From contig CM055111.1 of the NCBI GenBank assembly GCA_029204225.1, positions 18,432,668 through 18,496,667 of the forward strand: DNA of 64,000 nucleotides, written 5' to 3'. The stretch comes from Diphasiastrum complanatum (lineage: Eukaryota > Streptophyta > Lycopodiopsida > Lycopodiales > Lycopodiaceae). Shown here in pieces: positions 10,893 through 53,698 of the stretch (positions are counted from its first letter, which is position 1; each line of letters opens with the position of its first letter). Below the pieces are notes generated by a model that saw nothing but the letters and a program-made list of their open reading frames with translations, did not search any database and was not told the origin of the DNA. Made by a program: the position numbers and the translations under genes.

Positions 10893-11142
10893 TTAAATGG
10901 ATCTCACTTTTGGAATTTGTTACCTATCAACACATTGAATACCATTTTCTATCAACATTGGTTGCCATATGCACAAGTGTATAAAGAAATTTATGTATCA
11001 CAAAAAAATGATGATCACAAATTGTGTACTCACATGCATCTACTTTTTGTTCGATGTCAACTAGTCAATTAATAAAGTGTTATTGCATCTATGAGCAATA
11101 TGATTAATATTACAATGAGTTAAAATACATCGTATTGTGTCA

Positions 11143-11700
11143 CTTATTTATTTGGTAGTTCATCATTATCATTTTCTGCATCATTATGCGACAAATCTAC
11201 CAAACCAAATGAGTCTATCTCTAATTCTATCCAAATATCTCTTATAGCTTCATCATTAATAAATTGATCTTCAAAAGCTAATGGCGACGGTTGCAACGAG
11301 TGAGACCAAGAAGGTGTGTCGTGTGTCGTTGATCCATCCGATGATGATGCATCACGCTCAACCTCATCATTAGCTTGTGAAGCTTGCACATGATTATCCT
11401 CCAAAAATGTGTTATCGAATCCGTCATCACGATCTTGTTCATGAGGTTTCTGACAGTTGCATTGGGACCATTGCAAATAACTTTGAACCATTTGACATCA
11501 AATATGAAAAAGCTGAATTGTCTAAATCCAACTGGTGTCTGTTGTGCTTGCTCGACTCTCTTGGGTAAAATTTGCCATGACTCCACAATCGTATGTATTT
11601 CTGTTTTTGTCGATATGCTCTGTACGAAAGTGTCATCCATGCGTCCACACATGGCATTGTATTTTTTGTACTGAACGAAATGGAACTAAATGTCACAAGA
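11143..11700 (-). pseudogene. CACTA transposase C-terminal (DUF4216-like) remnant, left copy
   Basis: The minus-strand product matches the better copy at 31,396-32,317: FRQFSFFIFDVKWFKVICNG, then an acidic tail ending ENDNDELPNK. Two deletions separate it from the right copy. About 390 bases are missing between GTCAGAA and CCTCATGAAC, removing the middle of the domain and the intron. About 50 bases are missing before GGATTTAGAC. It cannot be functional. DUF4216 is the region that follows the TNP2-type DDE transposase in plant CACTA elements. Confidence 0.65.
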
Positions 11701-11757
11701 ACACATGTAGCAAATATCCACGCACAACACAAAGGAGGAGGCACGGGCAAAAAAATT

Positions 11758-12212
11758 TCGCATGGATATAGTTGTGGATGGGCATGGATATACGCATGGA
11801 TATGATGCGTGGATTATCCACGCATGGATGTTCCACACAAGTGTCATTTCCAGCAGCAGATCGGTTGGATGTTGTGAAATTCAAACTGCGTGGATTATCC
11901 ACGCCAACTCCGACAACCGGCAGTCGGGCAAACCTCCGACACCCGAAGCCGGAAATGTGACTTTTTATTTCGCATGGATAATCCACGCCATAGTAAGATT
12001 TTCTAAAAAAAGGCTCGGCTTTTGCGTGGATATTGTGTGTCAAATTATCCACGCGTGGATTATTAACACGAGATTTTTTTATCCACGTGAAATCCAGAGA
12101 GCTGGGGTTGTGGATACCACGTGGATAAGTTTTTTTTTATCCACGCGGTATCCATGCAATTAAGTCTCTGGATTTTGCGTGGATTATCCACACGTGGATA
12201 ATCCATGAAAAA
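11758..12212. repeat. Cluster of palindromic GTGGAT/ATCCAC motifs, left copy
   Basis: About 20 copies of TGGAT in both orientations occur here, many paired as the 17-base palindrome GCGTGGATWATCCACGC or variants. The centre near 12,135 is a longer hairpin: CCACGTGGATAA, a T run, then TTATCCACGCGG. The cluster is conserved in the inverted partner at 30,837-31,318. Such arrays resemble transposase-binding subterminal repeats of CACTA elements, but here the cluster is internal, beside the transposase end. Confidence 0.7.
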
Positions 12213-12459
12213 AAATTGACCCAAAAAAAAAAACATTTGGTGCAAACCAAAATGTGGTTCGCTCCTAAACTAGAGGTCGACTTCCTTTTCCTGTTGTGTG
12301 TGCGAGAGAAAAAGAGAGTATAGATGGGAGTGAGGATGAGATGGGGATGAATGTGAGTGAGAAGATTGATAGTGTTTAGGATTTTTTGTTCATTGATGGA
12401 TGTTAATAGTATGTGTTTTGTGATCATATGTTTTAGGATCTTTTTTGTTTGTGATGTAG

Positions 12460-12569
12460 CCTTGGATATGCAAAATGAAAAAAAGAGCTTTCATTGCAAA
12501 GGATTGAAAGATCAAGTGCATGCAAAAGGAAAAGCGAAGATTAAAAACAATGGAGATACAATAGTAAAG
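12460..12569 (+). pseudogene. Short conserved exon of the SET-side gene (left copy)
   Basis: This is a 110-base segment between acceptor TTTGTGATGTAG| and donor AAAG|GTAAAT. It encodes LDMQNEKKSFHC then KGLKDQVHAKGKAKI and KNNGDTIVK. The inverted copy at 30,475-30,584 has the same length and splice sites. It lies on the same strand as the SET-like gene, about 2.8 kb upstream, and may be its 5' exon. The product is basic and I do not recognise it. Confidence 0.45.
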
Positions 12570-12916
12570 GTAAATTCACATTTATTTTGATTCATTTGCC
12601 ATGCAAATCATGTGCTAAAATAGATACATTACATTAAATTCATCAATAGATACATTTGCATTCCATAGATGTGCATTAAATAGACTATACATTGCATTGA
12701 ATACATCAATAAATACATGTGCATTCAATAGATGCACATTCAAAGACTATACATTTGCATTCATGAATTAAAAATATATGCATTCAAATTTTTTGCAAAA
12801 ATGATGTGGTGCCAAAACATTATATTGATTGATTTAAAAAAAAGTACATTTATGAGAGAATAAATTTTCCCTTCATACATTGCCTTCTACAAGGCCTTAC
12901 ATTTAATTTAAACACT

Positions 12917-13088
12917 CTACTCATCATCACTTCCTCCCTCCTTGCTTCCTTCGTCTTGTAGGTGTACGTTGGTGTCCCCATCTTCAAACTCCCCATCGCT
13001 CTCATTCATGTTCTCTTCCACATTTTGCTCCTCAATATTTTCCACACTTTCTTCCACATCACGAACGCTTGAAGTTGTAGAGCCTCTC
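12917..13088 (-). pseudogene. Acidic C-terminal exon, left copy
   Basis: On the minus strand, acceptor TCTATTTTGTAG| opens an exon very rich in E and D (VEESVENIEEQNVEENMNES, and so on) ending SDDE and a TAG stop. The right copy (29,971-30,141) is clearer. An upstream exon (minus strand, about 13,137-13,310) can be read with an in-frame stop as FDHGYVGLKAFMESHGLF. The family is not recognised. It is transcribed toward the transposase end, opposite to the SET-like gene. Confidence 0.45.
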
Positions 13089-13310
13089 TACAAAATAGAA
13101 TCGAAAGATTCAATTAAATTGAAATTAAACTTACTTGTAAACCACAAAGTAAACAATCACGAAACAATAAGGGTTAAGAGTTTACGATTGAAAACAATCC
13201 ATGGGATTCCATAAAAGCCTTAAGGCCGACATATCCATGATCAAAACCTTGTTTGTACTACGTGGCGGTCATGTGTCTTCCAAAATCACTAAGCTACATT
13301 CAACAAAAAA

Positions 13311-13840
13311 ACATAGTTTAGTAATAAAAAAAATTAACAATCTCACTATCATAATCTTTTCTAGATTTTAGGAGAATATTTTACTGTAGGATTTTACATA
13401 AAATATATTTTTTAATATGATGGAACATAAAAAAATCAAATTTAATTGTTAAAACTAGTTTTATATTGTTATAAATTTTATTTTTTTGAGATTTGACATA
13501 CAAGACAAAATCAAGAGATAAGAAATAGTACATATTATTATTAAACAAGTAATTTGACAAGTTTTTTAAGATTTTATGACGTAATATTATGTCAAATTGG
13601 TAGCAATGTTACTAGAATATTAGATTTACATTAAGCATAACTAGAATATACATGGATTAGATGTTGGCATGTCTTTAACAAATTTTATTATATTTGTTCA
13701 GTTCATGATCACAATAGCAGGTATATATTGTTATTGATATTGACATCAATTGCACTTTATTTGTTATTTGAATATGAGTGTATAATTTTTCTTGCAAATT
13801 TATTCTTACAATGACATTTGATTGGAATTATGAATTCTAG
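13311..13840. other. AT-rich spacer of the left unit
   Basis: There is no gene here. The spacer matches the right unit around the Copia insertion. Near 13,705 it lacks about 115 bases (unique sequence on both sides of the Copia insertion) that the right unit keeps. Confidence 0.5.
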
Positions 13841-14002
13841 GGAAATTATCGTACCTCCACATGATTTGGAGAAAAGATAAAAATTGAGCTCTATCACAGA
13901 AAAAAGGAACAAGCAAGACTAAAGTACAATGAACAACTATTGATTGGTTCATCTTCAAGCTCTTCCATCAGTCGACGTAGACCGCCTATTGATCAATCAC
14001 AT
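13841..14002 (+). pseudogene. Second short exon of the SET-side gene (left copy)
   Basis: Acceptor TTCTAG| and a GTATGT donor bound about 162 bases. The inverted partner is 22,495-22,656. The readable frame gives IELYHRKKEQARLKYNEQLL then a serine run and SRRRPPIDQSH. There is a TGA near its start in both copies, so the true exon may begin later. In the right copy a CGA arginine codon in the SRRRPP stretch is TGA. A charged helix followed by a Ser/Arg-rich segment suggests a nuclear protein, no more. Confidence 0.4.
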
Positions 14003-14593
14003 GTATGTATATTGATTTATGTCGTAATTTTTTTATTTGTAATAGTAATGTACTCCGATTTGGTTGAGGATTGTGATATAGTATATTGCTCTTTGGAAAG
14101 CCAAGACACCACTCCATCACAAATAAAGTTGCAAATGCACTAAATGTACAAAGACTATTTTGTCAATTTTTGTCACATGTTACAATTTGTCAATTTTCAC
14201 TTGAATGACACTGAAAGAATTTGTGCGATTTGCAATTGGATTATTGGAACGATCATATTTGGGCCAATGGAGTGCACACAGAGAATCCAAGAGTATGAGA
14301 GATAAAGTTTTTAAAGTTTTTTTTGAAAATGCTTTAATCTTTGACCCTTATTGATCGATAGGATGAGTGCCACGATACTTTGAAGTTAATCTCTCACTTG
14401 CTTCTAAAAGGAAAAATCCAAATAGATAATTAGATGAAGTTAATCTCTCACTTGCTTTTAAAAGAAAATCCAAATAGAATGATTAGATGAAGTTAGTATC
14501 TCACTTGCTTCTAAAAGAAAAAATCCAAATAGAATGATTAGATGTAGTTTATCTTGATTTCCATATCCAATCACCCATAATAGACTCATTCAC

Positions 14594-14595
<2 letters not shown>
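14003..14595. other. Spacer with three-copy short tandem repeat
   Basis: There is no gene. Near 14,384-14,545 a unit of about 63 bases (GAAGTTAATCTCTCACTTGC ... AAATCCAAATAGA) is repeated three times. It is also present three times in the right unit (about 21,835-22,000). Confidence 0.5.

Positions 14596-14649
<54 letters not shown>
14596..14649 (+). repeat. (GA)n microsatellite
   Basis: This is a pure GA run of about 27 units. Its orthologous locus in the inverted unit is the (TC)n run at 21,732-21,783, of almost the same length. Confidence 0.9.
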
Positions 14650-14652
<3 letters not shown>

Positions 14653-15084
14653 GCTGGCATTCTTAAGGAATGGAATTGGCATCTTTTTCCCAAAATTGAC
14701 ATCTACAAAATTTTGCAGGATATTTTACGTAATAAATTTGAGATTTTATAGAGGAAAACTGGCAAGTAGAAGCATATTCCTTGTCAGTAGCCGAAATACT
14801 CCTTAAGATATGGGATTTTTGAGGGAAACCTCAAAAAAGTTTTCCGAACACTGGAGAGAGAGTTAAAAGTAACCAACGCTCCCAATTCTAGGAAGGTGTG
14901 AAGCCATTGTTTTCTTCTATTAAAGGCGTGGTTCAAATTCTTTTGTTGGAAGATGAGTTCCACAAAAAAACCCAAACGCCGCAGGGAGGGAGCATGTGGT
15001 GACATTTTGGAGTAGGATATAAATTGTGTGGTTCGGGAGTTTTGATTAGCACTCTATAATGTTCTCATGAAATGTGTTTAGGGT

Positions 15085-15119
<35 letters not shown>

Positions 15120-15121
15120 TG
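15085..15121 (+). repeat. (TG)n microsatellite
   Basis: This is a TG run with minor interruptions. It is matched by a CA-rich stretch at 21,262-21,297 in the inverted unit. Confidence 0.85.
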
Positions 15122-15189
15122 TGTGCGTATGTGTGTTTCATGCTACCAATTTACGATTTATGTTATATATTAATTTATGTTTCATGCTT

Positions 15190-15207
15190 GAGAGAGAGAG
15201 AGAGAGA
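15190..15207 (+). repeat. Short (GA)n followed by A run
   Basis: Nine GA units are followed by about 14 A residues. The same locus in the inverted unit is a 138-base (TC)n run (21,069-21,206), so repeat number changed strongly after duplication. Confidence 0.85.
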
Positions 15208-15251
15208 AAAAAAAAAAAAACTGATATATCTAACATTTTCAACTTTTGCAG

Positions 15252-16278
15252 AAGAAGGAACATAAGTTGGTTTCAAGGAAAAGAGTTGCAAGAGAGATCG
15301 AGAATATTATTGATAGGATAAATCACATGAATATTGATTTTGGATCATCATTGGCCTTAGATGATGCTCTTGTTGATGATGACCCCTTGCATGATATAAT
15401 TAGTTCATCAATGCCTTGTGATTCAATCCATGTCTCCAAATCTCTAGAACATTCTTACCACCCAACCACACCTATCCTAGATGTTGCACATGAGTCCTCC
15501 ACGATACTCCACGTGGATTCCACAAACTTGACCACCCTTTAAAAAGGAGAACACGTCTTGGACATACTATGACTAGTTTGAAAGATAATTGAAAATTTCC
15601 ACTCACTGTTGATGTGTCAAAAGACATTATAGGTTCTTTGTCTGATCTTCCTCTTCCACCTACCTTGCAACCATTAGTAAAAACTTTCATTAGAAGTAGA
15701 TATTCGTGTTGGCCATTCCAATCACCAGTACCATTAAATGGAACACCATTTACGTATTGGGGTCAAATGTACAGGATCATGCCTAGTGAACACTTTCCTG
15801 AGGCTAGAGTTTGGGCCTTTTTGCATTGAGTAGTATTGAGGTCCCTCTAAATAGTGTTGTGACATTGATGCCATATGCAGGACATCAATACAATTGGGGT
15901 GATTGGCATGCTTTGTGTCATCACCAATGGAGGATGCAAGTATATGGCTTGAATTCAAATGCTTGTTCTTTAGAGGAGCAACGCATGCAAGGAGGCAACA
16001 TCTCAAGGGCAAATCATACATACATTGATGGACATCCAGATGTGCATGGAAACATTGCTGCATATATAAATAGTTCCATTGGCCACCCTCTATTGACAAA
16101 TTGTGATTTTGAAGAATGCACCAACGGAAAAGAATAATGTTTTACTAGGAATGTAAAGGGAACTTATGTAATGGTCTGTGCCACTAGATCTATTAGGTTT
16201 AGGGAGGAATTGTTCATCAAGTATAGTTTCAACCATCCTCTACCCAAATGTTTGCAAAAGATAATAAGTCAGATGTGA
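15252..16278 (+). pseudogene. SET-domain-like protein carried by the CACTA-like unit, left copy
   Basis: Acceptor TTTTGCAG| opens KKEHKLVSRKRVAREIENI. After a frame change near 15,540, the product reads LPLPPTLQPLVKTFI, then a SET-type core: LFALSSIEVPLNSVVTLMPY (start of SET), HGNIAAYINSSIGHPLLTNC (like GN.AR.INHSC.PNC), and TYVMVCATRSIRFREELFIK then YSF (like A.RDI..GEEL..DY). SET folds are lysine methyltransferases using S-adenosylmethionine. Defects here: a one-base frame change near 15,815, a TAA at 16,135-16,137 where the partner has a GAA glutamate codon, and Gly to Arg in the GEE motif. The Asn-His-Ser of active enzymes is Asn-Ser-Ser. Its partner is 20,008-21,035. The SET call is from motif order only. 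Confidence 0.6.
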
Positions 16279-16642
16279 AAAATTAAAGTTTGTTGATATG
16301 CAGAGATGTATAATTAATGCATCTTGTATTTGGTTTGTGTCATTAAATATGTCAAATGTTAGGAGCATTATTTGTCATTTGCCTAGATGTTTACATAAGA
16401 TAATAAGTGAAAGCTAATGAATGTGAAATCCATAAATATGTAAATATGTAGAAGCGTGCAATTCTTTGAGTTCATTGAATATTAACAAGTTGAAATGAAA
16501 AATGGTCTAATAGATACATTGGTATGTTCATACTTTTTAAACAAAGAGGTAATTTATATTCATATGCAAAATTTATCAAGTATTGGAAGGAAATGTTTAT
16601 CAAGCATTGTTTCAACCTACTTCTTGTTATTTTGGTATATAG
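16279..16642. other. Intron or spacer before the last exon
   Basis: AT-rich, with no gene. It is matched in the inverted unit (19,644-20,007). It ends at acceptor GGTATATAG|. Confidence 0.45.
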
Positions 16643-17107
16643 GATTCTTCATCCTCATTTAGCATTGGAGACAATAATCCTCGTAATGGTCAATGTAGAC
16701 GACGAATGCAATACAACGGTCTTCATATAAAGCAATTACCTCGTCGTCTATGTCAAGGCTTAAAAGAGATGATGGAAATTGATGAGCACATTAATCAAGA
16801 GACTAATGCATCTGAATCTAGCTCATCTAGATCTACTTCTTCACAAACAAGTTCCAACGATGAAAATGAGCTTCTAATGGTCAAGTTAAATGGAGCACTA
16901 AGAAGTATATATGGCTTACATCCTCAATATGAGAGTATTGTGAAAAACTATCTACAAACTACTTCTCTCCAGCCTGGGTTTCGATTAAGGGAAACTATGG
17001 AATATGTTTTAAAGTACGAGCAACGAGAACAAAGGCTTAAGCTGGAAGCTGAAAGGAAAGAAGAACAATCTAGGTGGTTTGAGAAAATGAAGATGCAATT
17101 TCAGAAC
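16643..17107 (+). pseudogene. Charged last exon of the SET-side gene, fused to Copia RT
   Basis: After acceptor TATATAG| the exon reads DSSSSFSIGDNN, then HIKQLPRRL, a serine-rich stretch, LNGALRSIYGLHPQYESIVK, and a predicted helix YEQREQRLKLEAERKEEQSR. The helix looks like a coiled coil. The family is unknown. At about 17,107 the frame runs without a stop into Copia reverse-transcriptase sequence (QFQNTWELVEPPN). In the inverted partner it instead continues into IQNLVSVY. The sequence change marks the recombination or insertion edge of the unit. It may be a separate gene from the SET protein. Confidence 0.5.
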
Positions 17108-17640
17108 ACATGGGAGCTTGTGGAGCCACCAAACTACATGCATGTGATTGGATGTAAGTGGGTTTTCAGAATCAAGTATAATCATGATGATCTATCAATA
17201 AGTATAAAGCAAGACTTTGTGCCAAAGGCTACTCACAAATCAAAGGTCTTGACTATGAAGACACCTTTGCACCAGTTGCAAAGATGGTAACAATCAGAAT
17301 ACTCATATCTCTTGCATGTTTTCACAATTGGAGTATGTTCCAACTTGATGTTTCTAATGCATTTCTCAATGGTTACCTTGAGGAGGAGATTTACATGGAG
17401 CAACCTCCAGGTTTTGTGAAAGAAGGTGATGAATCAAAAGTTTGTCTTTTGTTCAAAAGTCTCTATGGACTGAAACTTGTATGCAAGGCTCAACTCTTGT
17501 CTCATATCACTCCAATTTTGTATAAGTGAATATGACCCTTCTCTGTATTATAAGTTTGTAGGTAATTTTGTAATTATTCTTCTCATCTATGTAGATGATA
17601 TCATTCTTTGCGGTCAGAGACTAAAATGATTAAATTCTAG
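17108..17640 (+). pseudogene. Copia reverse transcriptase fragment
   Basis: The fragment reads NTWELVEPPNYMHVIGCKWV and then, in shifted frames, [47 protein letters not shown], and the catalytic IYVDDIILCG at about 17,590. These are consecutive RT motifs of a Ty1/Copia polymerase. At least two frame changes and loss of the conserved QAPR after YGLK show decay. It is the right-hand neighbour of the left CACTA-like unit. Confidence 0.75.
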
Positions 17641-18150
17641 CCCTTTAGAGAGCTTTAAAAATTAGGCACATGGGCTAGTTGTGCTGAAGTGTCAGCCTTT
17701 AATTGGATTACATATATTATATTCCCAAGAAATTAGGAGCCAGATTCACCTTTTGCCAAGTGTCAAAAAATCAATGGTGGGTAGCAATGATACAAAGGTA
17801 AAAGTGAAAATGTGAGAGTATGATGGAGGGGGTCTACTAAATCTGAGACACATGGTAGTAGGTACCTAAATGGAAAAGTGCTTGTTGAAGGTCTGCAACT
17901 TGCTTTTCCATTGGGGAAAAATAATGGTCGAAGAAGAGGCTGATGAAAGATCCATATTGCTTGCAATTCTTTCATAAAAAATGGTAGTCATGAATTGATG
18001 TTCATATATAAATGCTCCAAATGAAGTAGTCAGCATAAATATTGACACATGTCTCTAGGCATACTCTTGACCAAAATATATTTCTTCAAATTTGGTCAAT
18101 ACCTCATTCATAGGTGGTTGTAGATATTCGACCTCATTGATCTCTAAAAT
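17641..18150. other. Unassigned; possible 3' extension of the minus-strand ORF in the direct repeat
   Basis: There is no clear gene. Minus-strand frames (for example 17,866-18,048) run on from the direct repeat at 18,151-19,165 and may be decayed 3' exons of the same unknown gene. This part is not present in the right-hand repeat copy. Confidence 0.25.
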
Positions 18151-19165
18151 GGACTCTCGTTTTGAAATATAAAATTTGCAGTTGCCCATATAAATCGTTG
18201 AAGCATCAATCCCAAATAGTGAAAATACATTCCAAAGTTAAACCAAATAACCATTGATGAACAATCATTGTTGACATTATTGAATGAAAGATTCACTAAG
18301 TTAGTATCGATTGAGCAATGCGAACTTCTCCAAAGAAACTGATATAGATTGATGGCATATTTTAAAATCAACTTCCTATAGAGTATTGGTTGACTGAGAG
18401 AATATTCTTAATAATTATTCACATCCATACATGCTAAATATGCATGTGAATTACATATTGGCTTTTGAGTTCTAGAGAATCTCTAGGAATAGGGTTCTCC
18501 ATCTGAAGTTATGAGGCATTGAACAATAATCCAAGGTATTGATACAAGTTAGATTATATGGAATAATGAAATCTCTTCATTGTGGACAATATCCTTGTTG
18601 AATACCTCATACTCCATCAGTTTGTTGTCAAAAATAGAAATATTCTCAAAGGCTCCCAAATCAAATTGAATTGGTTCGCAGATCCTGGATCCTTTAAATA
18701 GCCACTCAATTCCAAGCCATGGAATATCGGTGCCATATAGTCCTCATTCTGAAATTTTGGTGAATGCCTTGATCGACTTTCTTTGAGCATAACAATTTTC
18801 TCATTTTGATGACCCATAGTTGATTGATCATTCACTAGATTGCATCGATGTAGGTCAAGTTCCGGACTTTGATGGTTGAAGTTGAACTCAAAAGGATGTT
18901 TAATTATCTTCACATCCTGATCTAAATCTCAACTTTCGTCTGGAACTTTAACTTGGTCCGAATCTTGAATTGGACTTTTGTTGTCTGCAACTATATCTGG
19001 ACCTGGGACTTGACTTTCATTGTCGCTTTGCTCATCAGAATCATTGTCCTTGCTTCGCTCATTCGCTTTGTCGTTGTCACTTTGCTCATTAGACTCATTG
19101 CTAAGATCATCTTCATCTTCATAAGTTTCTTCCCTTTCATTCCCATTGTCGATCTGTTGATGCTT
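18151..19165 (-). repeat. 1.0-kb direct repeat, centre copy, with unrecognised minus-strand coding remnants
   Basis: The repeat matches 32,531-33,575 in the same orientation with high similarity. Minus-strand frames in both copies encode an acidic protein with DEQSDN repeats (about 18,929-19,177). They continue to IIKHPFEFNFNHQSPELDLH and, in shifted frames, PWLGIEWLFKGSTICEPIQF and LILKYAINLYQFLWRSSHCS. This looks like one decayed multi-exon gene that I do not recognise. The repeats stand just outside each end of the right CACTA-like unit but are absent from the left unit's ends. This copy lacks about 22 bases (GATTTGATGTTTCGATTGTT region) that the right copy has. Confidence 0.65.
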
Positions 19166-19189
19166 TAGTATATACACTCACTAAGTTCT

Positions 19190-19643
19190 GAATTTGCATC
19201 TTCATTTTCTCAAACCACCTAGATTGTTCTTCTTTCCTTTCAGCTTCAAGCTTAAGCCTTTGTTCTCATTGCTCGTACTTTAAAACATATTCCATAGTTA
19301 ATCGAAACCCAGGCTGGAGAGAAGTAGTTTGTAGATAGTTTTCTACAATACTCCAATATTGAGGATGTAAGCCATATATACTTCTTAGTGCTCCATTTAA
19401 CTTGACCATTGGAAGCTCATTTTCATAGTTGGAACTTGTTTGTGAAGCAGTAGATCTAGATGAGCTAGATTCAAATGCATTAATCTCTTGATTAATGTGC
19501 TCATCAATTTTCATCATCTCTTTTAAGCCTTGACGTAGACGACGAGGTAATTGCTTTATATGAGGACCGTTGCATTGCATTCGTCGTCTATGTCGACCAT
19601 TACGAGGATTATTGTCTCCAACGCTAAATGAGGATGAAGAATC
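19190..19643 (-). pseudogene. Charged last exon of the SET-side gene, right copy
   Basis: The exon matches 16,643-17,107 through HIKQLPRRLRQGLKEMM, the serine-rich part, LNGALRSIYGLHPQYWSIVE and the RLKLEAERKEEQSRW helix. A one-codon loss (RLTMEY against RLRETMEY) and a TGA before GQRLKLEAE are visible. After EKMKMQIQN the frame enters sequence unrelated to the left copy. Confidence 0.45.
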
Positions 19644-20007
19644 CTATATACCAAAATAACAAGAAGTAGGTTGAAACAATGCTTGATAAACATTTCCTTC
19701 CAATACCTGATAAATGTTGCATATGAATATAAATTACCTCTTTGTTTAAAAAGTATGAACATACCAATGTATCTATTAGACCATTTTTCTTTTCAACTTG
19801 TTAATATTCAATGAACTCAAAGAATTGCACGCTTCTACATATTTACATATTTATGGATTTCACATTCATTAGTTTTCACTTATTATCTTATGTAAACATC
19901 TAGGCAAATGGCGAATAATGCTCCTAACATTTGACATATTTAATGACACAAACCAAATACAAGATGCATGGATTATACATCTCTGCATATCAACAAAATT
20001 TAAATCT

Positions 20008-21035
20008 TCACATTTGACTTATTATCTTTTGCAAACATTTGGGTAGAGGATGGTTGAAACTATACTTGATGAAGAATTCCTCCCCAAACCTAATAGATCT
20101 AGTGGCACAGACCATTACATAAGTGCCCTTTACATTCCTAGTAAAACATTCTTCTTTTCCATTGGTGCATTCTTCAAAATCACAATTTGTCAATAGAGGG
20201 TGGCCAATGGAACTATTTATATATGCAGCAATGTTTTCGTGCATATCTGGATGTCCATCATTGTATGTACAATCTGCCCTTGAGATGTTGCCTCCTTGCA
20301 TGCGTTGCTCCTCTAAAGAACAAGCATTTCAATTCAAGCCATATACTTGCATCCTCCATTGGTGATGACACAAAGCATGTCAATCACCCCAATTGTATTG
20401 ATGTCCTGCATATGGCATCAATGTCACAACACTATTTAGAGGGACCTCAATACTACTCAATGCAAAAAGGCCCAAACCAGCCTCAGGAAAGTGTTCACTA
20501 GGCATGATCCTGTACATTCGACCCCAATATGTAGTAAATGGTGTTCCATTTAATGGTAATGGTGATTGGAGTGGCCAACACGAATATCTACCTCTAATGA
20601 AAGTTTTTACTAATGGTTGCAATCTAGGTGGAAGAGAAAGATCAGACAAACAACCTAGAATGTCTTTTGACGCATCAACGGTGTGTAGAAATTTGCAATT
20701 ATCTTTCAAACTAGTCATAGTACGTCCAAGACGTGTTCTCCTTTTTAAAGGGTGGTCAAGTTTGTGGAATCCACGTGGAGTATCGTGGAGGACTCATGTG
20801 CAACATCTAGGATAGGTGTGGTTGGGTGGTAAGAATGTTGTAGAGATTTGGAGACATGGATTGAATCACAAGGCATTGATGACCTAATTATATCATGAAA
20901 GGGGTCATCATCAACAAGAGCATCATCTAAGATCAATGATGATCCAAAATCAATATTCATGTGATTTATCCTATCAATAATATTTTCGATCTCTCTTGCA
21001 ACTCTTTTCCTTGAAACCAACTTATGTTCCTTCTT
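20008..21035 (-). pseudogene. SET-domain-like protein carried by the CACTA-like unit, right copy
   Basis: This copy has the same architecture as 15,252-16,278 and is better preserved in the N-terminal SET part. SLSDLSLPPRLQPLVKTFI leads into FPEAGLGLFALSSIEVPLNS and VVTLMPYAGHQYNWGD in one frame. The C-terminal part reads ENIAAYINSSIGHPLLTNC, CDFEECTNGKEECFTRN, and GTYVMVCATRSIRFGEEFFI then KYSF. Here the GEE motif is intact, but GN of the GN.A motif is EN. Stops replace Trp after NWGD and Ser after YGLN, where the left copy reads through. Because disabling changes differ between copies, the ancestor was probably intact when the unit was duplicated. The chromatin-modification role is inferred from the fold only. 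Confidence 0.6.
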
Positions 21036-22843: not shown

Positions 22844-23498
22844 TGTGAAAATTGTCAACATTTCCTAGCTAGTTTGAGGCCTAAATTGGCTAAAATTGTA
22901 AATAGTTTTGGTTCTGGAGTTTTGCACGTGTGAACCAGGCCACAATGTTTTTATTTACTGTATTTTTTCAGTATGATGAAGTGTCAAACTTCATACCCTT
23001 CAAAATGAGACCATTTTGATGTATTTTGGTCATATAAGCCATTTTTAGCTATTTTTCCTATATAGGGAATATCTAGGGTCAAGTACCTTCTAGAGAGAGG
23101 AGAGAGAGTCATCTTCCTCATCCATAAATAGTAGGGAAGTCGTGGAGAACAGGTTGGAGAAACCTTTTGTATGCTTCATTGAGATCAATAGATCATTGTC
23201 ATTGTTTCTTCCTCCATTGAGAGCATTGTTGTGTGTATTGTCTTCAAGCTATTGTGTATGATCTTAGGTGCTATCCAAAAGTGATAGGCTGATGTATTAT
23301 GGACTGTATAATGCTATTTTGGGCCGCACTTGATGTTTATGGAAGTTTCCATTTGTGATAAATGCTTTTTGATCAAGTTCTTTGCATTCTAGGTAGCATA
23401 GAATGTGTTGCCAATTCCTAGCTTATGTAGTTTGGAGTGCAAGCATTCAAGCCAATGATCTTGGAGTTTAGATCCACTTAGGATCTGTATTTTTCACA
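22844..23498 (+). repeat. Copia 5' LTR
   Basis: It starts TGTGAAAATTGTCAACATTT and ends ATCTGTATTTTTCACA. A CATAAATAG string at about 23,121 is in the position expected for a TATA box. It differs from the 3' LTR at, for example, TTGCACGTG against CACACGTG. Confidence 0.95.
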
Positions 23499-23511
23499 TG
23501 GTATCAGAGCT
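23499..23511 (+). other. Primer-binding site (initiator tRNA-Met)
   Basis: TGGTATCAGAGCT directly follows the LTR end and is the standard plant iMet primer site for reverse transcription. Confidence 0.95.
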
Positions 23512-24670
23512 GGTTGGCTTCTATTTACAGTAAGTATTCCATTTTTGGTGATATTTGGATGTTTGATCAAGTTCTAGCATGATTTTGCATTGCTTTGTTG
23601 ATCAAATCTTACTAACCTTTGTTTTGTGAGTTGAACTTATGGATCAAAAGCATATTTCAGGTCTATTGAAGATCAGAGGCTGAAAAGAAACTATTTTGGA
23701 TCAGATCATAACACCTAATCATTTGTGATTGTGAGGCTTGTGCATATTCAATACTAACAATGTTCTTTTCAATCCTATTGTTGACAATCTCCATTCTTGG
23801 ATGAACACTCTCCTTAAGTGGATGAAACTTCTCCTTAAGTGGATGACAAATGCTCTTTTGAGTGAGTTGTAATTCTCCTAAAGGCTGAGCAAAGCTCCCA
23901 TTTGGATGAAAGATCCCCTTTTTTGGGTGAACATATTGTAAGCTCCATTGTGAAGAGCATATTGTAAAGATTGTCATCAATTTTGGCATAATTTTTGGTG
24001 TACTTTGTTGAGCATGTAAGTAACTCTCCTTATGTAATTTGATTGGAGCATTTGCTGGAAGGTGTTAACCATTATGCAAGTGTGTTTTCAGGTTCTTAAC
24101 AGGCTGAGGAACATTCTCATGTGAAGTGATCTTAGATCTACATCTAAACACCAAGATTTGACAAGATAGTGAAGCTAGTCTTGTGATTCACTAAGTGTGC
24201 TCATTCATTCACCTCTAAATCTTGTATTTATCACTTGCTGGAGTTTATAAACTTTTAGAAGTGTGGTTTACATGTGGTTTTACAGGTTGAATCAATATCT
24301 TAGTGTGTTGATCATATGTTGATCAAGTTTGTTCATTACTAGGTAATCTTGGCATCCTAGTTTTGGGTATTTTCTAAGAATGCAAGTAACTCTTCACACC
24401 ATAACTTGATTTGGTCACTTGCTGGAAAGTTTGAGAGCTTAAGCAAGAGTGTGTTCAGGTTGGTTTGATTTTGTAATCCATTCTTAGTGTGTGCAAAGTG
24501 TTGCATGTGTTTCAATCTTCCTTTCTATGCTTGGAAACCATCTAGGTTCAAGATAGAATTGTTTTAGGGTCCTAAATCTTCATAGATCTCTTTATCTATC
24601 ATTTGTTGAGAGAAAAGTGAGTGCTAAGTGCTTTAGGACAAAACCTAAAAGTTGAAGAAACATTAGAATC
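23512..24670 (+). other. Long untranslated leader of the Copia element
   Basis: This is 1.16 kb with no credible coding sequence. It holds a short tandem repeat near 23,795-23,850 (TTAAGTGGATGAA-type units). Three loose copies of a segment with CTTGCTGGA and GTGTTCAGGTT landmarks lie between about 24,040 and 24,470. The packaging signal would be expected here. Confidence 0.6.
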
Positions 24671-26032
24671 ATGGCTTCCAATGGTGGGATCATGCTAGAG
24701 TCTAGTGAAAGGTTGAGTTCATCAAACTACTCTACTTGGAAAGTGAGGATGGAGTCCTTACTTGAGTTGAATGAACTCATGGACATAGTTGCAGAAATTG
24801 AAGAGAGACCTCTCACACTTCAAGAGCAACAAAGTTTTGATAAGAAGGCCAAAAGGGCTCTTCATATCATTAAAATGAATGTTACAAATGAACTTCTCAA
24901 GGAAGTTGGAAAGTGTCAAAGTGCAAGTGAGGCATGGAATGCCTTAAAGAAGCTCTTTGAATCAAAGTCCACATCTAGGGTATTGACCCTAAGGAGACAA
25001 ATATTTTCTAGTAGGCAAAGAGAGGGTGAAAGTGCTCATGCATTTATCTTGAGAGTTAAGTCCCTAAGTGATGATTTAGCATGCATTGATGAGAACATAA
25101 AAGATGGTGAAATAGTCCAAGTTATGTTGAATGGTTTGCTAAATGAACATGCTAACCTTGTGCAAAGTTTTGCCATTCAAAGAGTCTTGCCAAGTGTGGT
25201 TGACTTGCAAGAAATCTTATTGGCTGAAGAACATAGGTTGCAATCAAAGCTTGATGGTGCATCCTTGCAAGGTGGAGGTGAAGAGGCTTTCTTCACAAAA
25301 GGCAAATTCAAGGGCAAAGGTAAAGGCAAAGGGAAATGGTCCAAAGGTGGTAACTTTGATCATGATGATCACTCTTCCTCTTCCTCTTCTACTAAGAACA
25401 ATAAGTCAAAGTTCAAGTGCTTTTATTGTGGGATAAAAGGTCATTTTGCAAATGAATGTTATAAGAAGAAAAGAGAACAAGGAGAGAGGCAAGGAAATCT
25501 TACAATAGATGAGGAAGAACATAACACATGTGAATCACTTGTTATGACTTCAAGTTTGTTAGCCAACATAGATGATAATGATCCTTGGTGGATTGATAGT
25601 GGAGCCTCATCTCACATGACAAGACATAAGGAATACTTTACATCCTTATTGTCTTATGAGGGAGAAGGTAACATCATCTACACTGCAAATGATGGTCAAT
25701 GTGACATCAAAGGCATAGGCACTATTCCTATTTCCCTTTCAACAAATAGGAAAGCAAATCTTGAAAATGTTTTGTACATTCCTTCAATCACTAAGAATTT
25801 GCTTAGTGTAAGTCAAATGATTGACAAAGGACTTGATGTGGAGTTCATTGGAGATGCATGTTTGATAAGTAAATGTGGATCCTTGATTGCTCAAGGTAGG
25901 AGGCATGGTAAACTTTTCAAGCTTGATGCATGTGTGATCTCTAATCATGAAGGATGTATGGCTAGGGAGCAATTGACAAACCAAGAAGTTTGGCACAAGA
26001 GGTTGGGCCATCCCAACTTCAAATCTTTGTAG
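24671..26032 (+). CDS. Copia gag and protease, ended by in-frame TAG
   Basis: 453 codons. Residues 1-200 form the Gag (UBN2-type) region, with SNYSTWKVRMESLLE near the start. A Lys/Gly-rich segment follows. A zinc knuckle, CFYCGIKGHFANEC, lies at about 250-263. The aspartic protease motif, WWIDSGASSHMT, lies at about 306-317. The GAG-pre-integrase domain ends with WHKRLGHPNFKSL. The TAG at 26,030-26,032 is in the same frame as the downstream pol, where related elements read on. It is therefore a point nonsense mutation or, less likely, a readthrough codon. The ATG at 24,671 begins the usual short hydrophilic Copia Gag N-terminus. Confidence 0.9.
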   Translation: MASNGGIMLESSERLSSSNYSTWKVRMESLLELNELMDIVAEIEERPLTLQEQQSFDKKAKRALHIIKMNVTNELLKEVGKCQSASEAWNALKKLFESKSTSRVLTLRRQIFSSRQREGESAHAFILRVKSLSDDLACIDENIKDGEIVQVMLNGLLNEHANLVQSFAIQRVLPSVVDLQEILLAEEHRLQSKLDGASLQGGGEEAFFTKGKFKGKGKGKGKWSKGGNFDHDDHSSSSSSTKNNKSKFKCFYCGIKGHFANECYKKKREQGERQGNLTIDEEEHNTCESLVMTSSLLANIDDNDPWWIDSGASSHMTRHKEYFTSLLSYEGEGNIIYTANDGQCDIKGIGTIPISLSTNRKANLENVLYIPSITKNLLSVSQMIDKGLDVEFIGDACLISKCGSLIAQGRRHGKLFKLDACVISNHEGCMAREQLTNQEVWHKRLGHPNFKSL

Positions 26033-26035
26033 GTA

Positions 26036-28624
26036 ATGGCAAATAAAGAGCTTGTTCTTGGTCTCCCTAAAAGTCTTGTTGCAAACAATAGTGTTTGTGA
26101 ACATTGTGCCTTGTCCAAATCTCATAGACTTGCTTATTCTAGATCTACTTCTAGATCTAAAGAAGCTTTTCAACTTGTGCATTCTGATATTCATTCTTCT
26201 AGTACAACTAGCAATGGTGGGGCAAAGATGTATGCAACTTTCATTGATGACTTTAGTAGGTATACTTGGATCTATCTTCTTAAAAGTAAGGATGAAGTGT
26301 TTGCTGCATTTGTCAAGTTCAAGAATGAAATGGAAAACCAATTCAATACAAAGATCAAATGCTTAAGATCTGATAATGGAGGGGAATACACCTCAAATAG
26401 GTTCAAAGACTTTTGTATAGCACATGGGATTAAGAGGGAGATGTCTAGTCCTAGGACTCCACAACAGAATGGAGTGGCCGAGAGGAAGAATAGAACCCTT
26501 TTTGAATGTGCCAAGGCAATGAGACTACATGCTAATCTTGCTAAGTCTTTTTGGGGGGAAGCTTTAGCATGTGCTAACTATCTATGTAATAGATGGACAA
26601 GTGCTTCCTTGGATGGTAAAACTCCTCATGAGGTTCTTTATGGTAGAAGGCCGAGTGTCAAGCATTGTAGGATCTTTGGATGTACATGTTTTGTCAATAT
26701 CACACTTGATGATAGAACTAAAGAAGATCCTTCATCAAAGAAGGGTGTGTTTGTTGGCTATAGTGAAGTAAGCAAGGCTTACAAAGTGTACATTCCTTCT
26801 ACAAAGAAAGTTGTCATAAGTAGGGATGTCATCTTTCATGAAGAGAATGTTTCCAATGTTGTTGATGTTGATGTTGATGTGCCTACTAATCATCATGATG
26901 TGCAAGATGTCTTGGATGAAGATGGAGATGCCACTCCAAAGCAAACTTCAAGGAAGACTCAAAGGCAAAGGGCTAAGCCATCAAGGCTAACCTATGATGA
27001 AAAAGGAAAGCAAGTGGTGGACAACTCTAACTTTGCTTTTCTTACCTCTTTTGATGAACCAACTTGTGTAGGTGAAGCAATTCAAAAGAAGGAATGGATC
27101 CAAGCCATGGATCATGAGCATCAAGCACTCATCAAAAGCAACACATGGAGGTTGGTAAAGCTTCCAAAGGACAAGAAGGCAATTGGTTGTAAGTGGATCT
27201 TCAAGATCAAGACAAATCAAGATGGATCAATCAACAAGTACAAGGCAAGGTTGGTGGCAAAGGGGTATGCTCAAGAATATGGTATTGACTATGATGAGAC
27301 CTTTGCACCCGTGGCAAAGATGGTAACTATTCGAATCCTAATCTCTCTTGCAACTCTTTATGATTGGGATATGTGGCAAATGGATGTTACTAATGCCTTC
27401 TTGAATGGTGATCTTGAAGAAGATATTTACATGGAGCAACCCGAGGGCTATGTTTCACATGGTGAGCCTAATCATGTGTGCTATCTCCAAAAGAGTTTGT
27501 ATGGGCTAAAGCAAGCACCAAGGAGTTGGTATGCTAAGCTCAATTCCTTCTTACTTTCTCAAAACTTTGTTATGAGTGAGTATGATCATTCTCTCTACTT
27601 TAGATTGAATGAAAATGATATCACTTTACTTTTGATCTATGTTGATGACATTATCTTAAGTGGTGGTAACAATCTAGATATAGATGAAATCAAGATGGCA
27701 CTCAAAAGAGAGTTTGAAATTCAAGATCTTGGTAAACTTCATTATATCTTAGGAATAGAGATTATTAGAACTTCTAAATCTACATTCATATGTCAAGAAA
27801 AGTATGTTAACTCTATTCTAAAAAGGTTTCATATGGAAGATTGTAAAGTTGTTTCTACTCCTATGGAATCAAATGTAAAGCTAACTACAAGAAGTAATGA
27901 AAGATCCTTCAAGGACATTACTCTCTATAGAAAGCTAATAGGATCTCTTATATGGTTAACCATCACAAGACCTGATCTAAGCTTTGTGGTTGGTAAACTA
28001 AGTCAATTTATGCAAGATCCTAGTGAGGCTCATTGGAAGCTAGGAAAGAGAGTACTTAGATACATCTCGGGATCTAGAGATTTTGGCATCTTGTATGGAG
28101 GTACTGCACCTAACCTTTGTGGATTTTCAGATTCAGATTTTGCAGGTGATCAAATGGATAGGAAGTCAACAAGTGCCTTTGCAATCTATCTTGGAGATGG
28201 AGTGGTCTCATGGCTATCAAAGAAGCAACCAACTATCTCTCTATCTTCCACCGAAGCCGAGTACAAGGCATTAACAACATGCACCAAGGAGATTCTTTGG
28301 ATCAAGAGGATGTTATTGGATCTTCACTTGCTGGAACCAGAGAAGACTCCAATCATACTTTGTGATAACCTTTCAGCCCAAAGCTTGGCAAGCAATCCTG
28401 TTTTTCATGCAAGGAGCAAGCACATTGAGATTGCTCACCATTTTGTGAGAGATCAAGTCATTGCCAAAGAGGTGGAGCTTCAACATGTCTCTTCAAAGGA
28501 GTGTGTGGCTGATATCTTCACCAAACCATTGGGAAAGGACCTATATTTAATGCATAGATCTAATCTTGGAATGTGCTCAAAGACTATGTTGAAACTAGCA
28601 TCCAATGTTGAAGAGGGAGTGTGA
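26036..28624 (+). CDS. Copia integrase, reverse transcriptase and RNase H
   Basis: 862 codons in the same frame as gag-protease. Integrase: zinc-binding CEHC; catalytic D in FIDDFSRYTW, D in RSDNGGEYTS and E in NGVAERKNRTL, all present. A linker ends RLTYDEKGKQV. Reverse transcriptase: WQMDVTNAFLNGDLEEDIYM (about 446) and YVDDIIL (about 535). RNase H: GFSDSDFAGD (about 695), SSTEAEYKAL (about 737), and the C-terminal DIFTKPLG. No other stop is seen, so enzymes appear intact apart from separation from gag by the TAG. The ATG at 26,036 is the first after the stop and is not a family start. The stop lies at the first bases of the 3' LTR. Confidence 0.92.
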   Translation: MANKELVLGLPKSLVANNSVCEHCALSKSHRLAYSRSTSRSKEAFQLVHSDIHSSSTTSNGGAKMYATFIDDFSRYTWIYLLKSKDEVFAAFVKFKNEMENQFNTKIKCLRSDNGGEYTSNRFKDFCIAHGIKREMSSPRTPQQNGVAERKNRTLFECAKAMRLHANLAKSFWGEALACANYLCNRWTSASLDGKTPHEVLYGRRPSVKHCRIFGCTCFVNITLDDRTKEDPSSKKGVFVGYSEVSKAYKVYIPSTKKVVISRDVIFHEENVSNVVDVDVDVPTNHHDVQDVLDEDGDATPKQTSRKTQRQRAKPSRLTYDEKGKQVVDNSNFAFLTSFDEPTCVGEAIQKKEWIQAMDHEHQALIKSNTWRLVKLPKDKKAIGCKWIFKIKTNQDGSINKYKARLVAKGYAQEYGIDYDETFAPVAKMVTIRILISLATLYDWDMWQMDVTNAFLNGDLEEDIYMEQPEGYVSHGEPNHVCYLQKSLYGLKQAPRSWYAKLNSFLLSQNFVMSEYDHSLYFRLNENDITLLLIYVDDIILSGGNNLDIDEIKMALKREFEIQDLGKLHYILGIEIIRTSKSTFICQEKYVNSILKRFHMEDCKVVSTPMESNVKLTTRSNERSFKDITLYRKLIGSLIWLTITRPDLSFVVGKLSQFMQDPSEAHWKLGKRVLRYISGSRDFGILYGGTAPNLCGFSDSDFAGDQMDRKSTSAFAIYLGDGVVSWLSKKQPTISLSSTEAEYKALTTCTKEILWIKRMLLDLHLLEPEKTPIILCDNLSAQSLASNPVFHARSKHIEIAHHFVRDQVIAKEVELQHVSSKECVADIFTKPLGKDLYLMHRSNLGMCSKTMLKLASNVEEGV
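28609..28619 (+). other. Polypurine tract
   Basis: GAAGAGGGAG immediately before the 3' LTR primes plus-strand synthesis. It lies inside the last codons of pol. Confidence 0.85.
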
Positions 28625-29275
28625 AAATTGTCAACATTTCCTAGCTAGTTTGAGGCCTAAATTGGCTAAAATTGTAAATAGTTTTGGTTCTGGAGTTTCA
28701 CACGTGTGAACCAGGCCACAATGTTTTTATTTACTGTATTTTTTCAGTATGATGAAGTGTCAAACTTCATACCCTTCAAAATGAGACCATTTTGATGTAT
28801 TTTGGTCATATAAGCCATTTTTAGCTATTTTTCCTATATAGGGAATATCTAGGGTCAAGTACCTTCTAGAGAGAGGAGAGAGAGTCATCTTCCTCATCCA
28901 TAAATAGTAGGGAAGTCGTGGAGAACAGGTTGGAGAAACCTTTTGTATGCTTCATTGAGATCAATAGATCATTGTCATTGTTTCTTCCTCCATTGAGAGC
29001 ATTGTTGTGTGTATTGTCTTCAAGCTATTGTGTATGATCTTAGGTGCTTTCCAAAAAGTGGTAGGCTGATGTATTATGGACTATATAATGCTATTTTGGG
29101 CCGCACTTGATGTTTATGGAAGTTTCCATTTGTGATAAATGCTTTTTGATCAAGTTCTTTGCATTATAGGTAGCATAGAATGTGTTGCCAATTCCTAGCT
29201 TATGTAGTTTGGAGTGCAAGCATTCAAGCCAATGATCTTGGAGTTTAGATCCACTTAGGATCTGTATTTTTCACA
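28620..29275 (+). repeat. Copia 3' LTR
   Basis: A 656-base copy of the 5' LTR. It ends CACA followed by CACAC, the likely target duplication. Confidence 0.95.
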
Positions 29276-30836: not shown

Positions 30837-31318
30837 GCATGGATTATCCACACATGGATAATCCACGCAAAATCCAGAGACTTAATCGCATGGATACCGC
30901 GTGGATAAATAAAAATTTATCCACGCGGTATCCACGACCCTAGCTCTCTGGATTTCACGTGGATAAAATAATTTCATGTGGATAATCCACGCGTGGATAA
31001 TTTTCCACGCAATACCCACGCAAAAGCCGAGCCTTTTTTAAAAAAATCTTACTATGGCATGGATTATCCAGGCAAAATAAAAATTCACATTTCCGGATCC
31101 GGGTGTCGGAGGTTTGCCCAGCTGCCGGTTGTCGGAGTTGGCGTGGATAATCCACGCAGTTTGAATTTCACGACATTCGGCCGATCTGCTGCTGACACTT
31201 GCATGGAACATCCATGCATGGATAATCCACGCACCATATCCATGCGTATATCCATGCCTATCCACGACTATATCCACGTGAAATGTTTTTGCCCGTGCCT
31301 CCTCCTTTTTGTGCGTGG
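30837..31318. repeat. Cluster of palindromic GTGGAT/ATCCAC motifs, right copy
   Basis: The counterpart of 11,758-12,212. The hairpin centre is near 30,912: TACCGCGTGGATAAAT and ATTTATCCACGCGGTA face each other across four bases. Flanking CCAGAGA/TCTCTGG pairs extend the palindrome to about 85 bases. More GGATAATCCACGC repeats continue to 31,275. Confidence 0.7.
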
Positions 31319-31395
31319 ATATTTGCTACATGTGTTCTTGTGACATTTAGTTCCATTTCGTTCAATACAAAAAATACAATGCACTGTGTGGACGC

Positions 31396-32317
31396 ATGGA
31401 TGACACTTTCGTACAGAGCATATTGACAAAAATAGAAATACGTACGATTGTGGAGTCATGGCAAATTTTACCCAAGAGAGTCGAGCAAGCACAACGGACA
31501 CCAGTTTACTCTCTTCTCAAATTGATTATTGTAAGACAATCAATGGCATCTTTGAATTTGGATTTAGACAATTCAGCTTTTTCATATTTGATGTCAAATG
31601 GTTCAAAGTTATTTGCAATGGTCCCAATGCAATTGTCAGAAATGAGAGTAGTTATTTTGCCATTGAATCTGCCAAGCTTTGGACAGATCAAAGCGATACA
31701 TTTGTTTTTCATCAACCATGTGAGCAGGTACATTTCTTCTATGTCTTCAAGATGTCTATGCTCTTTTGTTGTCAATCAGTCGATTTTAAGTGTACTGCAA
31801 AAAATGTATATTGTGTATAGTGATACCCAACCAGCTGTAACAAAGCTATGGATATTAACTACAAGTCAATGTTTATGGTAACATCGATCAATTACAGGTG
31901 GTCTTTCACCCCGATCGTTCCAGATGGTCATACGTGATTCAAGTCGCTCCTCGAAGTAAAAGAATTTTTGAAGATAGAGATGTCGTGGAGGACATGGCGC
32001 TGCTAGTTGATGCACCTCATGAACAAGATCGTGATGACGGATTCGATAACACATTTTTGGAGGATGATCATGTGCAAGCTTCACAAGCTAATGATGATGT
32101 TGAGCATGATGCATCATCATCGGATGGATCAATGACACAAGACACACCTTCTTGGTCTCACTCGTTGCAACCGTCGCCATTAGCTTTTGAAGATCAACTT
32201 ATTAATGATGACGCTATAAGAGATATTTGGATAGAATTAAAGATAGACTCATTTGGTTTGGCAGATTTGTCGCATGATGATGTAGAAAATGATAACGATG
32301 AACTACCAAATAAATAA
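31396..32317 (+). CDS. CACTA (TNP2-type) transposase C-terminal domain, DUF4216-like, partial
   Basis: Two exons: about 31,396-31,727 and 31,898-32,317, joined at CAG|GTACAT and TTACAG|GTG (phase 0). The product reads NRNTYDCGVMANFTQESRAS and DYCKTINGIFEFGFRQFSFF, then IFDVKWFKV, KLWTDQSDTFVFHQPCEQ|VV, and WSYVIQVAPRSKRIFEDRD. It ends in an acidic tail, ENDNDELPNK. This order matches DUF4216 (..SGV.., an internal W in a hydrophobic strand, then PF..A.Q..QV.. and W..V....PR). That domain follows the DDE transposase core in plant CACTA/EnSpm proteins. The core itself is missing upstream, where the palindromic cluster stands, so this is a truncated gene. Confidence 0.65.
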
Positions 32318-50865: not shown

Positions 50866-51489
50866 AAAATGTGGAAACCCATGGGTTTTCGCCAGTTCTT
50901 TAACTTCCGCTCTACAAATATTTCGAGCAGAAGTCCTCAGAATTGGTAAAGCATTGAATGCAAAGCGTTTAAATGCTATTCAGTTAGCCATATTAACTGT
51001 CCTCAGCGCTTTTTGGGAGATATGCAATCTATGCACCAGTTCTAGTGATTGGGGCTTAGATTCCACAACGCTAGCTCAACATTTACCATGGTTTCCATTA
51101 ATCTACAATGGTCTCACTGTGGTGGACTATGCAGCTGGTTGGAAATACGAGCTCTGCGTGGTGTGAATGCATCCGTCACCACTTTCATTTACATGACTAT
51201 TCCAGTCTGGGGTGCACTTTTCTCTACACTTCTCCGACACAAATCTGCAAACGGTCTTGAACTTTTGGGAGGCCTGATGGTTCTGCTAGCAACTATGTGG
51301 ACCAACAAAATGACATCTCGAAAACCTACCAATCGCTCTCAACTGTACCAAACAGATCTGGGCCTTAAGATACAGAAGACAGAAAATGGCCACCTGAATT
51401 TTTGCCAGAATCTTTCCAGACCGGATCATGGCTATTTGATGAAAAATGTCCTGGTATCAACCCTCCTCAGTGCTGATCATCTTCCATGA
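50866..51489 (+). pseudogene. EamA transporter fragment (second EamA repeat), frameshifted
   Basis: GNPWVFASSLTSALQIFRAE and FWEICNLCTSSSDWGLDSTT, then LAQHLPWFPLIYNG, lie in one frame. After a one-base change near 51,110-51,120, CGGLCSWLEIRALRGVNASV and IYMTIPVWGALFSTLLRHKS follow in the next, ending at a TGA (51,487-51,489). Exons 1-3 and the start of exon 4 are absent. Relative to the gene at 5,478 it has many replacements, so the duplication is old. It cannot make a functional transporter. Confidence 0.8.
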
Positions 51490-53693: not shown

Positions 53694-53698
53694 GTTAA
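53694..53698 (+). other. Target-site duplication GTTAA (partner 58,775-58,779)
   Basis: GTTAA stands immediately outside both LTR ends of the element at 53,699-58,774: a perfect 5-bp duplication, as Copia integrase makes. Confidence 0.9.

Follow-up and report, generated by a model that had tools for sequence, protein, structure and literature searches.

Two broken copies of a CACTA-type transposon in a clubmoss genome, probably from a family with a SET exon inside its transposase gene

The stretch of 64,000 nucleotides analyzed here (the window; contig CM055111.1, abbreviated C20, 18.43–18.50 Mb) was taken from the 1.74 Gb genome of the clubmoss Diphasiastrum complanatum. It contains a large inverted repeat that extends from 10939 to 32522 and whose two units both carry an exon resembling the SET domain of histone methyltransferases. 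Unit A (10939–17107) pairs with 32522–19185, and the segment-wise identity between both units is 91–97%. Each unit comprises, in this order, a 5′ terminus, palindromic subterminal repeats, the SET exon, and the beginning of the next exon, after which it is cut off. A first-pass annotation of the window had interpreted the SET-like gene as the cargo of a CACTA-like transposon. The association with such an element is supported by the linkage of SET and transposase genes, the termini, the subterminal repeats, the target duplications and the signature of purifying selection. The term cargo has to be revised: the SET sequence is not a separate gene but an exon within the transposase gene, and the copies in the window are broken and truncated. 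Taken as a whole, the locus is best explained as a pair of broken elements in inverted orientation, both from a CACTA (En/Spm) family that has a SET exon in its transposase gene, and we consider this explanation probable. The coordinates of all features are listed in Table 1.

Three SET-like peptides had been reported to follow each other in both units. They were found in this order at 15808–16260 (+) and 20026–20477 (−), which confirms the observation. The outer coordinates assigned to the gene at that time, 15252 and 21035, correspond to two splice acceptors, the right one being deduced by symmetry. Neither copy possesses a single open frame across the SET exon; both are broken. In the minus copy, ENIAAYINSS replaces GNIAAYINSS; in the plus copy, FREELFIKYSF replaces FGEEFFIKYSF. 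The identification as a SET domain could be substantiated by means of the Pfam profile PF00856 for relatives of the window sequences, but not for the latter themselves. With a cut-off of 22.4 bits, P0001 (E = 8.3e-8, 33 bits), the open reading frame of copy E1 (E = 3.3e-7, 31.1 bits), copy E9 (E = 6e-8, 33.5 bits) and P0002 (E = 6.5e-7, 30.2 bits) are recognized. The best piece from the window, the C-terminal one on the minus strand, remains below this value (E = 0.0013, 19.6 bits), and the other eight window pieces that were scanned gave no SET match. All five aligned sequences retain the GxG glycines, the Asn of the NHS motif and the Tyr of the GEEL..Y motif. The NHS motif and the catalytic Tyr are typical of active SET enzymes. 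Protein searches in 5.8 billion sequences, which reach only relatives sharing short exact words with the query, yielded P0001 and, with an alignment as query, P0002, a piece of 112 amino acids (aa) encoded by a contig of 1,521 bases, and nothing else. P0001 is the D. complanatum protein O6H91_01G035400. It is the sole match among annotated proteins, was deposited as an ordinary hypothetical protein, and is 65% identical to copy E1 and 84–87% identical to the window pieces.

The exon structure was deduced from the window and its relatives. By eye, a splice acceptor precedes the SET exon in E1, E9 and the window, and another one precedes the next exon in E1, E5, E9, P34b and the window. Both exons start in phase 0, as judged in the same way, and the end of the upstream exon is likewise in phase 0 in E1 and E9. 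Where the damage is smaller, the SET frame terminates at a stop codon of its own. In related copies, the SET exon is placed after this upstream exon and before the exons that encode the transposase core (Transposase_21) and a DUF4216-type end. The SET exon is almost certainly an integral part of the CACTA element. The appearance of the upstream exon had suggested a Transpos_assoc domain; Pfam gave no match, and this assignment is not claimed.

A genome-wide search for the SET exon resulted in 2,715 first-look candidates, of which 150 were scored; every one of these gave a match. In ten copies chosen for long frames, the SET exon is open over 303–424 aa. Eight of these (E1, E3, E4, E5, E6, E8, E9 and E10) have a match to the Transposase_21 exon downstream on the same strand, and no such match was found downstream of the SET exon in E2 and E7. 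The exon of E10 matches the profile PF02992 (Transposase_21) with E = 1.1e-49. For a statistical assessment, 150 SET places from one scored search and 138 of the 146 from another one, whose first eight host-like rows were dropped, were merged to 219 places. These were compared with 150 listed places of the transposase exon. Note that each search scores 150 candidates out of thousands. For 64 of the 219 SET places, a listed transposase place lies within 10 kb, as opposed to 0.38 expected. The exon is located downstream on the same strand in 55 of the 219 cases, and in 50 of these the distance is 1,167–1,988 bp from centre to centre. The other arrangements (same strand upstream, one place; opposite strand, eight places) are all confined to a dense cluster on contig C1. 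Seen from the transposase, 57 of the 150 places have a SET exon upstream on the same strand, as do 43 of the 80 best ones. A separate list of PF02992 places (150 of 180 matches) gave a SET place within 10 kb in 26 cases (0.39 expected), namely 21 with SET upstream on the same strand, one with SET downstream and four on opposite strands.

In copy E5, the 5′ terminus, the SET exon, Transposase_21 and a DUF4216-type end follow each other on one strand; its 3′ end was not found in the stretch examined. A copy of 9.9 kb on contig C4 has both termini and, between them, a SET exon whose frame is interrupted, followed by Transposase_21 and the last exon of the transposase gene. The supposition that SET and transposase genes are associated throughout the genome is therefore borne out by the fixed order and orientation at 55 of the 219 places and by two copies that hold both genes.

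The listed places are not evenly distributed. Near the middle of contig C1 (101.6 Mb), a dense SET-CACTA cluster at 48.5–50.3 Mb comprises 27 of the 39 SET places and 30 of the 34 transposase places listed for this contig, and many of its copies carry one stop of the same kind. The cluster could be a centromere-seeking or a locally amplified subfamily. The window is part of a second cluster at 17.0–20.3 Mb of C20, which contains 10 of the 16 transposase places listed for C20 and 14 of 100 listed termini of the window type.

The ends of the element were determined by comparing copies; inspecting single copies for inverted CAC...GTG pairs flanked by target duplications had given nothing useful. 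The comparison yielded CACAACTACAAATATAGG for the 5′ end (E5, E6) and ACACATATATGTAGTTGTG for the 3′ end (E1, E4, E10; E9 by eye). The inverted termini start with CAC and end with GTG (CACAACTACA ... TGTAGTTGTG) and do not literally read CACTA. A 16-mer of the terminus core has 161 + 156 = 317 matches in the genome versus 2 + 1 = 3 for the reversed control. In both window units the 5′ terminus is CACAAGAACACATGTAG, located at 11694 (+) and 31342 (−). Allowing for at most three mismatches, the 29-mer CACAAGAACACATGTAGCAAATATCCACG is found 297 + 284 times in the genome versus 0 + 0 times for the reversed control. Each window copy has a 5′ terminus only; no 3′ end was found in either of them. The subterminal repeat of the window type occurs 29 times in the window, and 28 of these matches are concentrated in the two subterminal stretches (0.39 expected; palindromes were counted on both strands). 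Related copies contain subterminal repeats of the type TGCCACGCGTGGCA in both orientations. At four of the five loci for which both ends were read, the element is flanked by identical 3-bp sequences, if the pairing of the ends, which was assumed from their spacing, is correct. These are TAA, found at two loci of which one is evidently a duplicated copy of the other insertion, AAT, and AAA within an A-rich stretch; at the fifth locus, the 9.9-kb copy, TTG is opposed to CTG.

In order to characterize the selection acting on the exon, ratios of nonsynonymous to synonymous divergence (dN/dS) were calculated. Between families, dN/dS of the SET exon is 0.13–0.20 at a synonymous divergence of 0.46–1.6 (ten rows; E6 and one of two P34 pieces omitted, E10 trimmed), and the SET pieces from the window gave values of 0.07–0.26. 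For the transposase exon, the comparison of E9, of which about 109 codons could be used, with four others resulted in 0.09–0.15 (E2, E3, E4, E6, E7 and P34 omitted). Judged from these codon comparisons, the SET exon is under purifying selection between families, with a strength like that acting on the transposase.

A DUF4216-like transposase end had also been assigned to the units of the window. A fragment of this kind is indeed present next to each element, and the one on the right resembles the corresponding end of E5 (identities of 50% along 112 aa with E = 1e-32 and of 41% along 37 aa with E = 6e-7). On both sides the fragment is situated beyond the element's 5′ terminus and runs in the opposite direction. 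The Pfam scan gave no DUF4216 match for the window piece, and the piece from E5 matches DUF4216 with E = 7.9e-5 and 23.6 bits at a family cut-off of 30.6. Because the fragment lies outside the terminus and points away, it does not form one intact unit with the SET exon in the window, and its assignment to the SET unit was rejected. None of the Transposase_21 matches listed genome-wide is located in the window.

Table 1. Features of the two SET-CACTA copies and of adjoining elements in the window.
Feature	Position	Strand	Basis or remark
SET exon, left copy, broken	15252..16278	+	from splice acceptor (read by eye) to terminal stop
SET exon, right copy, broken	20005..21035	−	PF00856 E = 0.0013 on 20008–20328
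Next exon of transposase gene (N-terminal part, acidic/Ser-rich), left copy, truncated at 17107	16643..17107	+	open reading frame; resembles, by eye, the exon that precedes Transposase_21 in other copies
Next exon of transposase gene, right copy, truncated	19185..19643	−	open reading frame and inverted-repeat comparison
5′ terminal sequence (terminal inverted repeat) CACAAGAACACATGTAGCAAATATCCACG, left SET-CACTA copy	11694..11722	+	exact 17-bp core at 11694
5′ terminal sequence (terminal inverted repeat), right SET-CACTA copy	31314..31342	−	exact 17-bp core at 31342 (−)
Palindromic subterminal repeats GYGTGGATNATCCACGC, left copy	11807..12208		14 matches
Palindromic subterminal repeats, right copy	30837..31232		14 matches
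Main inverted arm, left unit	13697..17107	+	pairs with 22800–19185; including outer part, unit is 10939–17107
DUF4216-type transposase C-terminal fragment, outside terminus of right element	31404..32317	+	similarity to copy E5
Inverted copy of DUF4216-type fragment, adjoins left element	10939..11687	−	10939–11447 is 97% identical to 32522–32014 (−)
Copia long terminal repeat (LTR) retrotransposon interrupting right unit	22844..29275	+	LTRs 22844–23498 and 28620–29275, 98.9% identical

Further elements are found in the surroundings of the units. A fragment of a Copia reverse transcriptase (17105–17530; RVT_2, E = 7.2e-34) abuts the cut end of the left unit. The right unit is flanked by direct repeats (18155–19166 and 32531–33575, 94% identical) with an acidic open frame inside at 18929–19177 (−). 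These repeats were considered as LTRs of a SET-carrying element, which was ruled out since the termini, the subterminal repeats and the linkage indicate a CACTA element. A piece of an EamA-like transporter gene is present in two copies that are about 80% alike (7546–8424 and 50868–51754; PF00892, E = 2.3e-10 in the first). Direct repeats at 53698–54518 and 57974–58774 (96% identical) enclose a minus-strand Copia frame of the gag type and are probably the LTRs of another element.

Several results weigh against a SET exon as part of a CACTA transposase gene. The match to PF00856 comprises the C-terminal half of the domain only (profile positions 36–46 to 104); the N-terminal half is represented solely by motifs, a glycine motif and PYxG, that were seen by eye. 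At the position of the NHS motif, the aligned sequences contain NSS or NCS. When profiles were compared, the domain aligned colinearly over its full length with four SET stretches of the host, but the similarity is weak (E = 0.007, probability 5.5%), and a structure model computed from four sequences was too poor for use, with a mean predicted local distance difference test (pLDDT) score of 32.7. Sequence searches of the PDB did not give a solved SET structure, the sole match being a chance nanobody. The exon joints were read by eye, and the upstream exon is without a Pfam match. No listed transposase place lies within 10 kb of 155 of the 219 SET places. Among the 80 best transposase places, 37 lack a listed SET place. 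Both numbers are in part due to the fact that each search scored 150 of thousands of candidates. Three of the 37 were read. One of them, the 9.9-kb copy, does hold a broken SET exon. The other two, on C20, are deletion copies in which the start of the SET exon is fused to the transposase, and are possibly duplicates of each other. The 9.9-kb copy is itself imperfect: besides the broken SET exon, its DUF4216 core is deleted and its target flanks do not match exactly. The C20 cluster around the window holds none of the five SET places listed for this contig, compared to ten transposase places. Finally, within the main family dN/dS of the SET exon is about 0.4–1.4, which indicates no selection between most copies; the transposase varies there from 0.5 to 1.9. 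Such a scatter is expected of dead copies, which decay after insertion.

With regard to function, the phase-0 joints on either side of the SET exon and its own stop codon imply that one pre-mRNA could give two products. The first would be a short protein with the SET domain at its end; the second, made when the SET exon is skipped, would be the transposase. This would be comparable to En/Spm, whose two products arise by alternative splicing. The chances that the SET exon is alternatively spliced are about even. In the most uncertain step, the SET protein might act at the copies of the element by methylating histones or, alternatively, the transposase or some other protein. This methylation would keep the copies open or tolerated by the host, and the family could spread. 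It is rather doubtful whether the SET protein is the active chromatin-modifying enzyme predicted here. The complete scenario is put forward tentatively: a plant CACTA lineage might possess, within its transposase gene, an alternatively spliced SET methyltransferase exon, so that a single gene would encode the transposase as well as the enzyme, and the predicted enzyme, guided to the termini of its own family, might rewrite histone marks there and let the family multiply.

The change of NHS to NSS or NCS is also compatible with a SET fold that has no enzymatic activity and serves for binding, for instance of the subterminal repeats or of the transposase, in place of the TNPA-type protein found in other CACTA elements. 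No TNPA/TNP1-type match was detected in the five proteins scanned, which is a thin test, and purifying selection by itself does not prove catalysis. Nevertheless, the residues kept in the five aligned sequences are those to be expected in a working enzyme, and we regard an inactive module as possible although unlikely. A second alternative is that SET constitutes an in-frame domain of the transposase (a SET-TNP2 fusion) for target choice or protein contacts and not a separate enzyme. The two exons are in phase 0 on one strand, 1.2–2 kb before Transposase_21, and a phase-0 GT was seen by eye shortly before the stop codon in the E family, E9 and P34b. However, as a candidate donor this GT is weak, the window family lacks it, the coding similarity continues up to the stop codon in several families, and the annotated P0001 ends at precisely this stop. 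A fusion is clearly improbable.

CACTA elements often carry pieces of host genes, and the SET copies within one family evolve nearly freely. Both facts would fit a fragment of a host SET gene that was caught by chance (Pack-CACTA) and is merely copied along. Such a passenger would hardly have been kept in four diverged families (E, E9, P34b and the window) with dN/dS of 0.07–0.26 at synonymous divergences of 0.46 to about 2, nor would its position before the next transposase exon be identical in all four; we judge this origin very improbable. A host SET gene family that lies near transposons merely by chance, to which the annotation of one member as the host gene O6H91_01G035400 might point, deserves virtually no credit, because it is contradicted by the linkage of SET and Transposase_21, whose strand and distance are fixed where 0.38 neighbours are expected. 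In addition, all of the 150 scored candidates out of 2,715 matched, and one copy has SET between both termini.

If the SET exon belongs to a CACTA transposase gene, a land plant can be added to the oomycetes and fungi from which transposon-encoded epigenetic enzymes are known, with a CACTA element present in many copies. Whether the histones at the copies of a plant transposon are methylated by the transposon itself thereby becomes a testable question. The finding is also a warning with respect to annotation, as at least one such exon has been deposited as the hypothetical protein O6H91_01G035400. The first-pass annotation knew of no CACTA family with a SET gene. This agrees with our search for SET genes in CACTA or lycophyte transposons, which found none described in a CACTA element or a plant in the mostly open literature it covered, with Repbase Reports outside its range; SET genes in other transposons are already known.

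With plant CACTA/En-Spm elements (Spm/En, Tgmt*), whose hallmarks are outlined in PMC2613891 and PMC4158355, the clubmoss element shares the Transposase_21 (tnp2) core, a DUF4216-type end, inverted CAC...GTG termini, palindromic subterminal repeats and a 3-bp target duplication. It differs from them in its termini, which are CACAACTACA or CACAAGAACACATGTAG and not CACTA, and in the SET exon of its transposase gene. According to PMC12730594, which cites Kojima and Jurka 2014, HarbingerS and MuDR elements of Phytophthora have acquired SET genes. These are likewise DNA transposons encoding a protein of the SET histone-methyltransferase type; judged by their description, they are set apart by belonging to other superfamilies and by their oomycete host. 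Proto-Helentron-Pi of Phytophthora, as described in PMC4067079, is also a mobile element with a SET-domain reading frame, but of the rolling-circle type. Its SET domain is reported to be Clr4-like and to give a strong profile match, whereas the clubmoss SET domain is diverged and contains NSS or NCS instead of NHS, again in a comparison by description. TET/JBP genes reside in EnSpm and other DNA transposons of fungi and have been proposed to help these escape silencing (PMC12730594). Here, an EnSpm-type element with an enzyme for chromatin marks is the common feature; the enzyme acts in DNA demethylation and the hosts are fungi. Plant Vandal elements of the MuDR type encode anti-silencing proteins (PMC12730594). 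They resemble the clubmoss element as plant DNA transposons with a protein of their own, which in Vandal acts on epigenetic silencing. The Vandal anti-silencing protein is named VANA and is not known to be a SET protein. In contrast to the clubmoss element, Vandal elements do not belong to the CACTA type.

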